Virus record (IMG/VR): IMGVR_UViG_3300027704_004384 | Coordinates: 1 to 40,851 of that record | Length of the DNA: 40,851 nucleotides | Strand: one strand, 5' to 3' | From: a virus | Shown: positions 32,931 through 40,024 of the stretch, piece by piece | How the letters are laid out: every line of letters begins with the position of its first letter | How positions within the stretch are numbered: position 1 is the stretch's first letter | Program-made: the position numbers and the translations under genes | The notes under the pieces: generated by a model | The model's input: the letters and a program-made list of their open reading frames with translations, nothing else | The model's database searches: none | Told to the model about the DNA's origin: nothing

Positions 32931-33470
32931 TTGTTACTAGCATTAGATATATCGACAAGCTGCACTGGGTATTGCATCTTTGACGAGGATAAACTTATAG
33001 ACATCGGAAGTATAAACCTAAGTAAACATAAGGGGTTGTTCGCGAAAGCAGCTCTAGTTAAATCTGAGATATTAAGATTGAGCAGCACGTACCAAATTAG
33101 TAATGTTGCTGTTGAGGAAAACTTGCAGGCATTTCGACCGGGCCTGAGCTCAGCCAAGACATTAATGACATTGGCACAGTTTAATGGTGTTGTACGATGG
33201 ATATGTCACGAAAGATTAGATGTGCCAGTTGTTTCAATTAACGTTAATACAGCACGAAAAAATGTTGGATTAAAAATTAACAAGAAAGATAAAACTAAGA
33301 CAACGAAAGAAAAGGTGTTAGATTGGGTAGCAGTTGAGCTTCCGCAGATAGAATGGCCAACAAAAATATTAAAAAGCGGCCCAAACAAAGGAAAAGAAAG
33401 GATTTGCACTGAAGCATATGATATGGCAGATGCTTATGTGATAGGTAAATCATTTCTACTAGAAGTTTAA
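32931..33470 (+). CDS. RuvC-like Holliday-junction resolvase
   Basis: A 179-residue RNase-H-fold nuclease. LALDISTSCTGY at 3-14 gives the first catalytic Asp (D6), VAVEENLQAF supplies the Glu (E62 or E63), and the final AYDMADAYVIG supplies the Asp pair (D164 and D167). This is the order D-E-D-D of RuvC-type resolvases, which cleave four-way DNA junctions; T4 uses the unrelated gp49 for the same step. The start is TTG directly after the preceding TAA; AAAGAGGA upstream is a good binding site and no in-frame ATG precedes the catalytic Asp. It would resolve recombination intermediates before packaging, and pairs with the gp47-like nuclease at the window end. Confidence 0.8.
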   Translation: MLLALDISTSCTGYCIFDEDKLIDIGSINLSKHKGLFAKAALVKSEILRLSSTYQISNVAVEENLQAFRPGLSSAKTLMTLAQFNGVVRWICHERLDVPVVSINVNTARKNVGLKINKKDKTKTTKEKVLDWVAVELPQIEWPTKILKSGPNKGKERICTEAYDMADAYVIGKSFLLEV

Positions 33471-34188: not shown

Positions 34189-35157
34189 ATGGAAATTGTT
34201 ACAAAACAACAGAAGATTGACGCATTAGAAGGTATATTTGGTGAATCCACGTTAGCAAACAGTGGTAAAAATATATCAGTCATATGCCCAGCATGTAAAT
34301 CAGACTCAAAATCTAGTTCTAGAAAGAAAAAACTATCAATATGTCTTAATAAGGGCATATATCACTGTTGGGTATGTGAGTCAAAAGGTCATAATATTGC
34401 TAAGTTTGCAATACGCAATACTTTTATTAATAAGTCCGACGTCGCAACTCTAAACGATTTATTTTCATTTGATGATAATAAAGAAGAAAAAGAACCTGAG
34501 TACATCTTAAGGTTGCCTGAAGATTTTTGTTTGTTAGTAAATGCACCTGGTAGGATGGCCAAGATTGCTATGAGTTATCTGCACAAACGAGGTTTAACAC
34601 AGAATGACTTTCTACGTTATAAAATAGGAATAAGTGGCGAATATGAATTTAATAACAGAGTGATATTTCCGTCGTTCTGTGATGATATGAAATTAAACTA
34701 TTTTTTATCTAGAACATATGATGATAACCAATTTAGAAAGTACAAAAACTGCCAAATACAAAGAAAAGACGTTATTTTTAATGAACACTTAATTGAGTGG
34801 GACAAACCCGTTATTTTAGTTGAAGGTGTTTTTGATGCAATTAAGGCAGGGGATAATGCTGTACCTATGTTGGGCAGCTGGATTAATGAAAGTCATTATT
34901 TGTTCAAGAAGTTAGTTCATGAAAAGTCAGAAGTTGTAATGTGCCTAGACCCGGATGCAATAGATAAAACCATGAAATTGGCAAAAAGCTTTAAACAATA
35001 TGGTTTAAATGTTAAATTGGCAATGCACACTGATAAAGACTTTGGTGAAATGAAAAAAGAAGAAGCAAATTATTACATACAATCTGCGAAGAAGTATGAA
35101 CTTACTGATAGAATAGGATATTTAATACAGAGTATCAGTTCAGGTTCGATATTTTAG
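34189..35157 (+). CDS. DNA primase, DnaG/T4 gp61-like (CHC2 zinc finger and Toprim)
   Basis: A 322-residue primase. The zinc-binding region is at 33-63: C33-P-A-C36 and H59-C60-W-V-C63, the CHC2-type finger that reads the template. The Toprim core has VILVEGVFDAIKAG (catalytic E212, with D216) and VVMCLDPDAIDK (D254, D256), plus D282/D284 later. It makes RNA primers for lagging-strand synthesis with the replicative helicase, which is not encoded in this window. Length is near T4 gp61 (342 aa) and much shorter than bacterial DnaG, so the helicase-binding part is reduced. There is no clear Shine-Dalgarno before the ATG, and the 108-nt gap upstream is the longest in the window. Confidence 0.88.
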   Translation: MEIVTKQQKIDALEGIFGESTLANSGKNISVICPACKSDSKSSSRKKKLSICLNKGIYHCWVCESKGHNIAKFAIRNTFINKSDVATLNDLFSFDDNKEEKEPEYILRLPEDFCLLVNAPGRMAKIAMSYLHKRGLTQNDFLRYKIGISGEYEFNNRVIFPSFCDDMKLNYFLSRTYDDNQFRKYKNCQIQRKDVIFNEHLIEWDKPVILVEGVFDAIKAGDNAVPMLGSWINESHYLFKKLVHEKSEVVMCLDPDAIDKTMKLAKSFKQYGLNVKLAMHTDKDFGEMKKEEANYYIQSAKKYELTDRIGYLIQSISSGSIF

Positions 35158-35165
35158 GAGACATA

Positions 35166-35714
35166 ATGAATGAGTTAATGAAGGCCAAAATTCGTAAAAT
35201 GGTTATGCAAGAATTGGCGTCTATGGTGGGTGAAGATGCGCTTATTAGCCGCGGCAGTACAAGAGATGAGTATCGACGCACACCTCACAATTTAAGCCTC
35301 ACAAAGCACAGTGATAGCTACGATGACTTTGGCGGGGCTCAAGATGTATGTGAGCAATGCGGAAGCAATGATGTGTATGAAGGTGATTGTATGGAATGTG
35401 GATATAGTAGTGGCAGAATGTTACAAGAGGGTGGCTGCGGTTGCAGTGGTGAATCTAAAGATGACGAATCAGACTATTCATTAGACACAATGATGGAACC
35501 TGGTCACGGCGAAGTTCATAAACACAAGCATAACAACTACATGGCAAAACCTTCACTTTATAAGGTCGCAAAATACGCACAAAAACTTTTACATATGATC
35601 CCAGATGGTTATGAATTAGATGACTGGCAACGCACAAAAATTGCCCAAATATCTGATGATATATCAGAAGTATATCATTCATTAGATTACGACTTTCACG
35701 ACGACGAGTATTAA
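35166..35714 (+). CDS. zinc-ribbon protein with DWxxxKI helical tail
   Basis: A 182-residue protein. N-terminal helix MKAKIRKMVMQELASM (5-20) is basic/amphipathic like that of the 33526 protein. A four-Cys zinc ribbon follows: C62-E-Q-C65 and C75-M-E-C78. A Gly/Cys-rich turn holds C91 and C93. The C-terminal helical region (about 129-175, SLYKVAKYAQKLLHMI, then DDWQRTKIAQISDDISEVYH) is followed by an acidic tail. AGGAG overlaps the primase stop, so it is coupled to primase. The last base of its stop is the first of the next ATG. No function is recognised; a small nucleic-acid- or protein-binding adaptor is plausible. Confidence 0.6.
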   Translation: MNELMKAKIRKMVMQELASMVGEDALISRGSTRDEYRRTPHNLSLTKHSDSYDDFGGAQDVCEQCGSNDVYEGDCMECGYSSGRMLQEGGCGCSGESKDDESDYSLDTMMEPGHGEVHKHKHNNYMAKPSLYKVAKYAQKLLHMIPDGYELDDWQRTKIAQISDDISEVYHSLDYDFHDDEY

Positions 35715-37015
35715 TGAGATCGATTAGAGGACTATTTGAAGCAACAAATCAAGATATTGATGGAGACCATTTAGATCGAATGGCCAGGAGACATCGATAC
35801 TTTGATAGCGATTGTTATGACAATATTCCAAAAATGAAATATCCAGCTGAAGGGACGCAATCATTCCAAAATGATTTTAAAGAAGTTTTGAGATGTCATA
35901 ATCACCCAAGTTTAACAACAAAGTTTTTACGAAACAGTGACGACTCTGTTGCAGAAGTATTTGAAGAATTTTGTAAAGAAAGTGGAATTACGCTGATTGA
36001 TTGGCGGAAAATTAAAGATATCGTAAGCGACGTTGATTCGATTGTCCTTAAATTAAAATATGACAATAATCGGCCGCGACCTATTCACTATCTTAGCGAT
36101 GTGTCAGATGATGAACTTCATATAAAATACAAAAAATCGCCAAGTTATCCTAGCGGTCATACCGCAATTGCCTATTTTTTGTGTGATATATTATCTGCAA
36201 ATATTCCAGACTTGCAACAAGACTTGCAAACTTTAGCCTCACTAATAGGACAAACAAGAATTGAAAATGCAGTTCATTTTCCAACTGATATTGATTACGG
36301 ACGTCTAGTCGGTGAAACTTTGGCAAATTTATTTTTAAGCCAAGACAATAATAAAATTAGCTTTGGATTAAAAACAAAAAATTATCGTGAATTTGGTAAT
36401 AGGCTTTGTGATAAAGCACAAGAAGTTTACAGTGATGACATTGAAATTGATGCATATGAAAACTATGCACGTGATATGGCTAGCTTTTTGCACCGAACCA
36501 ATGAAATAGAACTTTATAAAACACCGTATTCTGAATGCCTAGAAGCAGCAAACCACGCAATGATGGGTTTTCCTAGTAGCTACGCTACAAAAAACAAACA
36601 TATTCAATCACAATTGGACGGTTTGACAATGTCTAATAAATGTGGTGTTATCGACAACAACCATAAGATAGTTCGAATACATGAATGCTTCGACACAACA
36701 GTGCTAGAACGCGGTGCACCCGGTGAATTTCGTAATTTTTCACATAAGTCGCGTGCAGGTGTTCAATTTCCAGAACCGAGTGATCTTCATAGGAAGCTGA
36801 AATCGTGTCATTTGATTAGAGCTAAAGCTTGGATACGTCATCTATTATATGAATATATTCATCCATTCTGTGATGGTAATGGAAGGTCAGGCCGCATTAT
36901 ACTAGCTAATGATTTAGACTATAATTTTAAAATGATAAACAAGATGATTGGTCTAGACTATATACCTACGATTGTTAAGCAAATGGAAGCTAATAAATTA
37001 GAAAAGTTGTTATAG
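35714..37015 (+). CDS. PAP2-family phosphatase fused to a Fic domain
   Basis: A 433-residue two-domain protein. The N-terminal part carries the complete soluble PAP2/acid-phosphatase signature: K115-x6-R122-P123, then PSGH with H149, then R182-x5-H188-x3-D192. There is no transmembrane segment, so it resembles secreted/soluble class A phosphatases or haloperoxidases rather than lipid phosphatases. The C-terminal part is a Fic domain: the flap region around G337-E-F-R340, a long helix, and the catalytic H383-P-F-C-D-G-N-G-R-S-G-R394, which matches HxFx(D/E)GNGRxxR fully. Fic enzymes usually transfer AMP (or other nucleotide or phosphate groups) to protein hydroxyls. A possible inhibitory helix motif at T262-N-E-I-E-L is degenerate (Leu instead of Gly/Asn). 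It begins in the TAATG of the zinc-ribbon gene. Substrates are unknown; host-protein modification during infection is an inference. Confidence 0.85.
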   Translation: MRSIRGLFEATNQDIDGDHLDRMARRHRYFDSDCYDNIPKMKYPAEGTQSFQNDFKEVLRCHNHPSLTTKFLRNSDDSVAEVFEEFCKESGITLIDWRKIKDIVSDVDSIVLKLKYDNNRPRPIHYLSDVSDDELHIKYKKSPSYPSGHTAIAYFLCDILSANIPDLQQDLQTLASLIGQTRIENAVHFPTDIDYGRLVGETLANLFLSQDNNKISFGLKTKNYREFGNRLCDKAQEVYSDDIEIDAYENYARDMASFLHRTNEIELYKTPYSECLEAANHAMMGFPSSYATKNKHIQSQLDGLTMSNKCGVIDNNHKIVRIHECFDTTVLERGAPGEFRNFSHKSRAGVQFPEPSDLHRKLKSCHLIRAKAWIRHLLYEYIHPFCDGNGRSGRIILANDLDYNFKMINKMIGLDYIPTIVKQMEANKLEKLL

Positions 37016-37584: not shown

Positions 37585-38640
37585 ATGGATATTAATACAT
37601 TCGTCCAAGTAATTTCAAAACTACCACCTCAAATAGCAGTTCTTGCCAAAGGCCCAACAGGTATCGGTAAATCACATATTGTTCACCAGATTGGTGATCG
37701 TTTAGACATGGAAGTTATTGACCGTCGTCTGTCACAAATGACTGAAGGTGACATTATTGGTTTACCAGAATTGGTTGACGGCGTCACTCGCTTTGCACCC
37801 ATTGATTGGTTTGTTCGTGCATGCAATGAACCTGTTATCTTGTTCTTTGATGAATTAAACCGTGCCACTATCGAAGTTCAGCAATGTGCTTTTCAAATTG
37901 TGCTAGATAGAGAACTCAATGGTCACAAACTACACCCAGAAACACGTGTTTATGCAGCAGTTAATGAAGGTAGTGAATACCAGGTAACTGAAATGGATCC
38001 GGCTTTGCTGCGTCGTTTCTTTGTGTCAACCCTGGAACCAACAGTGCAAGATTGGCTAACATGGGCTCACAAAACAAAAAGAATCGACCCGTTAATGATA
38101 TCTTTTATTGAAAAATATCCTGCGCGTTTGCGACACACCGGTCAAATAGAACCTGGTAAGGTATATCCTAATCCTGCATCTTGGGACCGTCTTAATACTT
38201 CATTATCATATGCAAACATGTCACCCACTAGTTGCTGTGGCGCAAACTATGATATTCTCTTTTATTCAATGTGCTCAGGTTTTCTTGGCACTGAAACAAC
38301 GGTTTCGTTTGTTGACTATGTTAAAAATTATGAGTTTAAGTTTTGTGCTGAAGATATCTTAAATGACTACGAAAACAAAAGCGCCAGCATTGATACTCTT
38401 TCAACAGATAAGAAAAACAATCTTCTTAATCTTATCGTCACATATTCAATTAACAATAATATAACTGTTACACAGGCACAAAATGCATGCAATTTTGTAA
38501 ATAAATGTTCTGATGAAATGCTTGTTAACTTTATGAACATGATTATGGAAACAAAAAAATTACCAAACATTCGTAAGTTTCATAAAATCATTGGCAATAA
38601 GATTGTCGAAGTTGTAAATGCTGCTAATGATGTAAAATAA
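37585..38640 (+). CDS. MoxR-family AAA+ ATPase
   Basis: A 351-residue AAA+ protein with Walker A GPTGIGKS (23-30), Walker B VILFFDELNRA (84-94), a sensor-1 Asn in AAVNEGSEY (N127) and an Arg-finger-like DPALLRRF (138-145). This order and the ELNRA after the Walker B Glu are typical of MoxR-type ATPases, which partner VWA-domain proteins to remodel or load metal/cofactor sites in target complexes. The C-terminal 150 residues, helical, form the lid and a partner-binding extension with no recognised motif. It has its own promoter (P2) and sits 55 nt before the metallopeptidase/VWA gene, the usual companion. Confidence 0.88.
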   Translation: MDINTFVQVISKLPPQIAVLAKGPTGIGKSHIVHQIGDRLDMEVIDRRLSQMTEGDIIGLPELVDGVTRFAPIDWFVRACNEPVILFFDELNRATIEVQQCAFQIVLDRELNGHKLHPETRVYAAVNEGSEYQVTEMDPALLRRFFVSTLEPTVQDWLTWAHKTKRIDPLMISFIEKYPARLRHTGQIEPGKVYPNPASWDRLNTSLSYANMSPTSCCGANYDILFYSMCSGFLGTETTVSFVDYVKNYEFKFCAEDILNDYENKSASIDTLSTDKKNNLLNLIVTYSINNNITVTQAQNACNFVNKCSDEMLVNFMNMIMETKKLPNIRKFHKIIGNKIVEVVNAANDVK

Positions 38641-38695: not shown

Positions 38696-40024
38696 ATGAT
38701 AAAAGAATCATCAACTGAAGCAGAAGTTGAATTATTGACAAAAGAACGATTTGACAAGGTGATGTTAAAATTTCTAATTGACGAACCGTTCTTTTCAGAT
38801 ATCATGCGTTGTATGCGAAAAGAAATGACAGATTCTATTCCCACAGCAGGAGTGTTATGCAAAGATGCTGACATTGTTATGTATTGGAACCCTAAGTTTG
38901 TATCAAAGCTACCTGTACGTCAAATATTTGGTTTATTAAAGCACGAATGTTATCATTTGATATACCAACATTGTACTTCTAGAAAACAAGAACCTCACTT
39001 AATGTGGAATATAGCTACTGATTTAGCAATTAATTGTACAATCAACCATTCAGATCTTCCAAAGGGTGGACTGATTCCTGGTCGAGCATCAGAAAAGCCT
39101 GACGATACATCACATTTATCAAAAGAGGTATTGGCACAGTCCCAAAAGCTATCTGATTTTATTGAACAATTGCCACCTTACAAATCATCAGAGTGGTATA
39201 TGGAAAAAATCATGAGTAACGATGATATCCAAGACGCAATCAACGATTGTATGGGCGGTAAATCAATCATGATAGGCAAGCCAGGTGAAGGTGAAGGTGG
39301 AGGATGTAATGCTACAAGTGCTGGTTTTGATTATCACTTTGAAAACGATGACATGTCAGCAGGCGATCAGGCAATGATTGATGCGAAAATCAAAGATATT
39401 ATTAAAAAAGCAACAGAGCGAGCCGATCGGTCTAATTCTTGGGGTACAGTTGGTGCTGAGACTCAAAAACAAATTCGTGCCATGATGCACAAAGAAGTCG
39501 ACTGGAAAAATGTACTTAGATATTTTTGTGGCACAAAACAGCGTGCTAATCGTTCCCGAAGTTTTCGAAGAATTAATAGAAAGTATCCGTATATCCATCC
39601 AGGTCGAAAAACTAGTCATACATCAAGTATTGTTATTTATATCGATCAATCCGGATCAGTAAGTGATGAAGACCTGACGTTACTATTTAGCACCTTAAAT
39701 GACTTAGCATCAAGAGTAACTTTTACATGCTATCATTTCGACACAAAAGTTGATGATAATAGTAAATACGTGTGGAAAAAGAATAAAAAGGTTGACAAAC
39801 CGTATCGTACACGATCCGGCGGTACTTGCTTTAATGCTGCTGAAGATCATTATAGAAAAATCTCAGCAGCATATGACGGTTACATTGTTATGACTGATGG
39901 TTATGCGCCTAAACCAAAAACTTGTATATCTAAAAGATGCTGGGTATTATTACCAGGTATAAAACCTTCGTTTCTAATTGACAACAGAGATACTGTTGTT
40001 TTGATGGAGAGGAATAAATCATAG
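38696..40024 (+). CDS. DUF2201-like metallopeptidase/VWA protein (MoxR partner)
   Basis: A 442-residue protein. The N-terminal domain has a zinc-peptidase HExxH (H83-E-C-Y-H87) with WNIATDLAIN following (D109 a likely third ligand), the pattern of DUF2201-type putative metallopeptidases. A Gly-rich linker (PGEGEGGGC, 196-204) follows. The C-terminal VWA-like domain has a MIDAS: D317-Q-S319-G-S321, T377 in SGGTCF, and D401 in MTDGYAP. MoxR ATPases commonly pair with such VWA proteins. It starts from its own promoter and is followed within 7 nt by the gp47-like gene. Whether it cleaves proteins or acts as a chaperone adaptor is not evident. Confidence 0.82.
   Translation: MIKESSTEAEVELLTKERFDKVMLKFLIDEPFFSDIMRCMRKEMTDSIPTAGVLCKDADIVMYWNPKFVSKLPVRQIFGLLKHECYHLIYQHCTSRKQEPHLMWNIATDLAINCTINHSDLPKGGLIPGRASEKPDDTSHLSKEVLAQSQKLSDFIEQLPPYKSSEWYMEKIMSNDDIQDAINDCMGGKSIMIGKPGEGEGGGCNATSAGFDYHFENDDMSAGDQAMIDAKIKDIIKKATERADRSNSWGTVGAETQKQIRAMMHKEVDWKNVLRYFCGTKQRANRSRSFRRINRKYPYIHPGRKTSHTSSIVIYIDQSGSVSDEDLTLLFSTLNDLASRVTFTCYHFDTKVDDNSKYVWKKNKKVDKPYRTRSGGTCFNAAEDHYRKISAAYDGYIVMTDGYAPKPKTCISKRCWVLLPGIKPSFLIDNRDTVVLMERNKS

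Follow-up and report, generated by a model that had tools for sequence, protein, structure and literature searches.

This work supports the existence of a real viral protein in which a PAP2 phosphatase and a Fic enzyme are joined in a single chain, with both active sites apparently intact. The stretch of viral DNA analysed here (a virus record of 40,851 nucleotides, hereafter the window) carries at 35714–37015, on the plus strand like the other genes, domains and motifs of the window located below, a reading frame of 433 codons that stays open without internal stop. Its product of 433 amino acids exceeds the curated cut-offs of two Pfam families, namely PF01569 (PAP2; residues 113–214, nucleotides 36050–36355; 48.4 bits against a cut-off of 27.2, E 9.9e-13) and PF02661 (Fic; residues 332–397 for the core of the domain, nucleotides 36707–36904; 32.6 bits against 24, E 1.5e-7). 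The first-pass annotation had read both signatures in this one frame, and the profile searches bear it out, not only in the window copy but in all 19 full-length members of the family collected here. A frameshift or a chimeric assembly joining two genes is ruled out, since the identical single-chain layout is carried by 19 contigs. The two domains are known ones; it is their architecture that looks new, and no two-headed enzyme of this sort is described in the sources searched.

The chain shown here holds two predicted active sites, each complete and invariant, with the Fic site accompanied by an inhibitory glutamate (E266). The catalytic signature of the PAP2 superfamily and the class A acid phosphatases, KX6RP – PSGH – (S/T)RX5HX3D, occurs in all 19 members, its three motifs lying in the window copy at K115-x6-R122-P123 (36056–36082), P146-S-G-H149 (36149–36160) and R182-x5-H188-x3-D192 (36257–36289). 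This is the numbering originally proposed, and K115, R120, R122, P123, P146-S-G-H149, R182, H188 and D192 are the same in every member; an alternative register, K113-x6-R120-P121, was rejected because K113 varies across the family and K115 is constant. The Fic (Fido) motif HPFx(D/E)GN(G/K)RxxR is present in 19 of 19 as well, in the window copy as H383-PFCDGNGRSG-R394 (36860–36895), again as first reported, and in the family as an invariant HPFxDGNGRxGR at positions 383–394.

The same cannot be said of two further claims of the first-pass annotation, that the inhibitory motif of the Fic half is degenerate and that its activity may therefore be unrestrained. The motif of the window copy, T262-N-E-I-E266 (36497–36511) followed by L267, deviates from (S/T)xxxE(G/N) in its last residue only. 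Across the family S/T262 and E266 are kept in all 19 members, four of which (L012, L022, L029 and L044) have the final N and so the full (S/T)xxxEN, and E266 belongs to the small number of positions beyond the catalytic motifs that never vary. The motif aligns where stand-alone Fic proteins have SNxIEG or SNAIEN, and it is placed N-terminal to the Fic core, which is the class II layout. In EfFic and FICD, the conserved Fic glutamate holds AMPylation down, and deAMPylation requires it (PMC6408439). Going by these residues, autoinhibition is expected of the Fic half, which by precedent may also deAMPylate. With class II-type Fic enzymes (SoFic, FICD and the Clostridium Fic 4x2c) it has in common HPFxDGNGRxxR and the (S/T)xxxE ahead of the core, but it differs from them in having PAP2 in front and, in the window copy, an inhibitory motif that ends without G/N; against the SoFic equivalog of NCBIfam, the window protein scores 23.1 bits, the cut-off being 550, and it falls outside that group.

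A structure prediction, proposed in the first-pass annotation as a check on both active sites, was made with AlphaFold2, which from an alignment of 47 sequences (the 19 fusions, 15 cellular PAP2 and 13 Fic sequences from viral and cellular contigs) folds both halves confidently (pLDDT 93.4, pTM 0.89); this run supersedes one with five sequences, where pLDDT was 44.7. Foldseek pairs the N-terminal half with class A acid phosphatases (7f17, PhoN, PhoC and 1d2t; TM-score by target about 0.60–0.69) and the C-terminal half with FICD and other Fic enzymes, the FICD alignments overrunning the Fic fold (rmsd 16–20 Å) and showing the presence of this fold, not its fit. The complete signature and a soluble all-helical fold are what the N-terminal half shares with class A acid phosphatases (PhoN, PhoC and the Escherichia blattae enzyme), whereas the absence of a signal peptide, an identity of about 19–24% and the joining to Fic set it apart. 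It is not a class A acid phosphatase proper (i.e., PhoC/PhoN), as it has no hydrophobic N-terminus and the window protein reaches 28.6 bits against the PhoC equivalog, far under the cut-off of 430 bits. Neither a membrane segment nor a signal peptide was found in the family, where the highest 19-residue hydropathy is 1.21, and for this reason the protein should stay cytosolic; a membrane-bound lipid phosphatase is ruled out by the same absence of hydrophobic segments. Secretion is typical of class A acid phosphatases, and as the fusion has no signal peptide, the substrate of its PAP2 half cannot be inferred from these relatives.

The fusion is not confined to the window. At least 19 distinct full-length PAP2–Fic fusions, the window copy included and duplicates removed, are found on viral contigs of IMG/VR, which reach 237 kb; they were collected by pattern scans, which miss distant relatives, and it is these 19 that make up the family alignment, in which the others are 34–72% identical to the window copy. 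Between the window copy and L001, dN is 0.15 in the PAP2 half and 0.18 in the Fic half with synonymous sites saturated, and both halves are under strong purifying selection. A clade of large viruses has thus kept this gene for a long time, and T4-type head genes are present in at least one of them.

The first-pass annotation knew of no described phage protein with this pairing, and none emerged from the phage records or the literature searched (where coverage is thin for subscription journals), nor did any such fusion turn out to be already characterised there. Compared by tblastn to 50,697 GenBank phage records, the window protein matched in parts of its PAP2 half only, and a distant member of the family (L033) in either half, never in both. 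The fusion was not found in plasmids, the PDB or BFVD, and no entry of the viral structure library spans both halves. Two pattern scans of genome contigs (84,980 genomes), with the reach that such patterns have, gave no cellular PAP2–Fic fusion among the matches listed, and the loci retained from the second of them have PAP2 alone or Fic alone.

In all the contigs that carry it, the fusion occupies the identical position, within a block of replication and recombination genes. The order is a RuvC-like Holliday junction resolvase gene (32931–33470 in the window; phrog_159, E 1.8e-15), a DnaG-like primase gene (34189–35157; phrog_47, E 2.7e-35), usually a gene for a Cys-rich protein of 182 amino acids (35166–35714), the fusion and then mostly a MoxR-type AAA ATPase gene (37585–38640; PF07728, E 5.6e-12) and a VWA/DUF2201 metallopeptidase-like gene (38696–40024; PF13203, E 3.6e-20). 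The last two are missing from the stretch in L043, L044 and L048, where the next conserved gene adjoins directly, and among 19 contigs fetched through the AAA neighbour the fusion is present in 16 and absent, within the stretch examined, from L027, L028 and L034. Pairwise identities of the PAP2 half correlate with those of the Fic half (r 0.74), and the two correlate with those of the primase (r 0.84 and 0.73, respectively) and of RuvC (r 0.29 and 0.50), the pairs not being independent in any of these comparisons. As the identities of the halves covary with each other and with the primase, they are consistent with inheritance as one unit; the weak correlation with RuvC means that not all of the neighbourhood has been inherited together. 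The Cys-rich gene has no Pfam match, and the one-base overlap between its stop and the start of the fusion (TAATG) makes it probable that the two are translationally coupled. Compared to its counterpart in a 202-kb sister phage (G001, loci L195–L205), the Cys-rich protein is 95% identical in its last 64 residues and 61% as a whole.

What could such an enzyme be doing? In Fic enzymes the histidine of the motif activates the acceptor hydroxyl, ATP donates AMP and PPi is released, and in PAP2 enzymes a phospho-histidine is formed and phosphate released. PAP2 enzymes cleave phosphomonoesters or pyrophosphates; protein deAMPylation is the cleavage of a phosphodiester. On this background we consider it reasonably probable that the fusion is a cytosolic two-headed phage enzyme, in which a class A-type PAP2 and a Fic of class II layout act as follows. 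The Fic head, turned on once E266 is displaced, would AMPylate a hydroxyl group on a protein of the host or the phage, with ATP as the donor, and it may remove this AMP too. The PAP2 head might hydrolyse a soluble phosphoester or pyrophosphate, be it a nucleotide, PPi set free by the Fic reaction or the same target in a phosphorylated form, and the pair could perhaps tune one modification or the surrounding nucleotide pool, this part of the scheme being the weaker one. In the infected cell, the purpose would be to take over replication or to protect it. That the two heads cooperate, be it by the opposing or sequential chemistry on one target suggested in the first-pass annotation or in another way, is a conjecture. 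PhoN2 is a class A acid phosphatase. This phosphatase-family protein is described as an apyrase (ATP-diphosphohydrolase; PMC3937361). Fic proteins with the inhibitory glutamate can themselves deAMPylate (PMC6408439). Several Fic proteins with a canonical motif showed no detectable activity in vitro, so that the motif does not guarantee AMPylation, and GyrB and ParE are known substrates that bacterial Fic proteins AMPylate (PMC7479194); given this precedent and the replication neighbourhood of the fusion, enzymes of DNA topology would be a sensible first guess as target.

A more daring version, which we hold to be improbable, makes the protein a phage AMPylation switch that is delivered or made early and places AMP on a host protein of replication or transcription, with the phosphatase head resetting or driving the reaction; it would have no known counterpart. 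Discussion of Fic enzymes usually centres on their roles as toxins, effectors and stress regulators of bacteria. If the reading as a two-headed enzyme is true, phages would have a new route to rewire the proteins of the infected cell, in the form of a Fic that is fixed in a viral clade and joined to a phosphatase, and H149 and H383, together with the switch at E266, would offer a clean two-site system for probing how AMPylation relates to phosphate hydrolysis.

The early timing in this version leads to the N-terminus of the fusion, where a conserved peptide, MxS(I/L)xxLFxET (35714–35749), has L7 and F8 invariant in 19 of 19 members, although model confidence is low in the first 10 residues and lowest there. 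It is tempting to see in this peptide a capsid-targeting signal, and in the fusion a takeover enzyme that is packaged in the head and injected, like Alt of T4, for immediate modification of the host. When 424 candidate T4 starts are scored with a weight matrix built on the N-termini of the 19 members, alt (MELITELFDED) comes out on top, and a pattern (L/I)xE(L/V)FD is kept by most of the Alt homologs examined. In T4, residues 4 and 7 are used for capsid targeting, and 8 and 10 for processing (PMC9026906). In addition, the sister phage has a prohead protease, a portal and a capsid protein of T4 type. However, Alt was picked for comparison partly on general grounds, the remaining T4 internal proteins score poorly with the same matrix, no further protein of the sister phage carries the peptide, and the gene sits among replication genes, not head genes. 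Furthermore, Alt, which is packaged in the head, has its first six residues removed (T4 Alt record), and the glutamate at this cleavage is not conserved in the fusions, being at position 6 in one of the 19 only, with further Glu at 9 or 10. Beyond the N-terminal pattern, and possibly a parallel as early protein-modifying enzymes, no common domain was recognised between the fusion and Alt, an ADP-ribosyltransferase of different chemistry. We thus regard head packaging as an unlikely explanation. LFxE, taken as a prohead protease site, is not clearly enriched in the proteome of the sister phage (20 seen against 15.4 expected), and a sliding-clamp-binding peptide (of QLxLF type) was rejected as another identity for the N-terminus, position 4 being I or L and never Q.

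Equally doubtful is that the fusion is a defence or superinfection toxin carried by the phage, whose Fic half kills or stalls the cell once a competing phage enters and is restrained by PAP2 or by the coupled upstream gene. Fic proteins do function in toxin-antitoxin and anti-phage systems (PMC12249575), the SoFic and candidate defence models of PADLOC match the fusion weakly (SoFic with E 9.8e-10, residues 315–397), and the overlap of its start codon with the preceding stop is of the kind such a reading would draw upon. Yet the fusion is fixed at one locus through a divergent clade, unlike defence genes, which are scattered, and its inhibition motif is already in cis. As for an adjacent antitoxin gene of the Fic/Doc sort, the neighbour observed is the overlapping Cys-rich gene without Pfam match; L023 and L024, both of which have the fusion, lack this gene or have no recognisable copy of it.

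Returning to the two-headed enzyme, its Fic half has viral relatives without PAP2. Seven loci (L050–L056), which code for six distinct proteins (L053 and L054 are the same), have Fic domains 33–37% identical to that of the fusion over the Fic half, inhibitory motif included. Those of L050, L051 and L056 stand alone, and the others are joined to a Nudix hydrolase (L052, 7938–8924), to a poly(A)/CCA-polymerase head (L055, 6813–10310) or to LRV repeats (L053/L054; 5997–9074 in L053). By their predicted domains, this viral Fic lineage has several partners, of which PAP2 is one, and the variety of heads joined to related viral Fic domains (PAP2, Nudix and poly(A) polymerase) points to a possible mobile module that would deserve a survey. 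That PAP2 is instead the working part, serving phage DNA synthesis as a pyrophosphatase or nucleotidase and regulated by Fic through AMPylation in cis or in trans, would agree with the surrounding replication genes and with Nudix and poly(A)/CCA polymerase both being enzymes of nucleotide chemistry, but it is quite improbable, since the other relatives, alone or with LRV repeats, indicate that the Fic half is useful without such a partner.

Leader peptides of another sort were observed in the sister phage, where about 29 of 235 plus-strand ORFs of G001 start with MKITRRQLRKLI(N/S)E, against 2.3 expected from internal segments. The proteins bearing them differ in length and sequence and are encoded in runs of neighbouring genes (e.g., G001 146839–151777 and 155292–157643, and the window from 33526 onward). 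Similar leaders are found in the gene directly upstream of the fusion and in the stand-alone Fic proteins L051 and L056. These strings were not found in the literature searched, and it is possible that they are a capsid-targeting or other sorting signal. In the sister phage, the major capsid protein (650 amino acids; L197, 7895–9844) matches the T4-type capsid family only from residue 319, and has before this residue a long N-terminal extension. Downstream of the capsid gene lie two adjacent and similar ORFs of 169 amino acids each (L197, 12491–12997 and 13013–13519), which have no PHROG match and both start with MPKVTYT.SKGLFQE(T/S)G.
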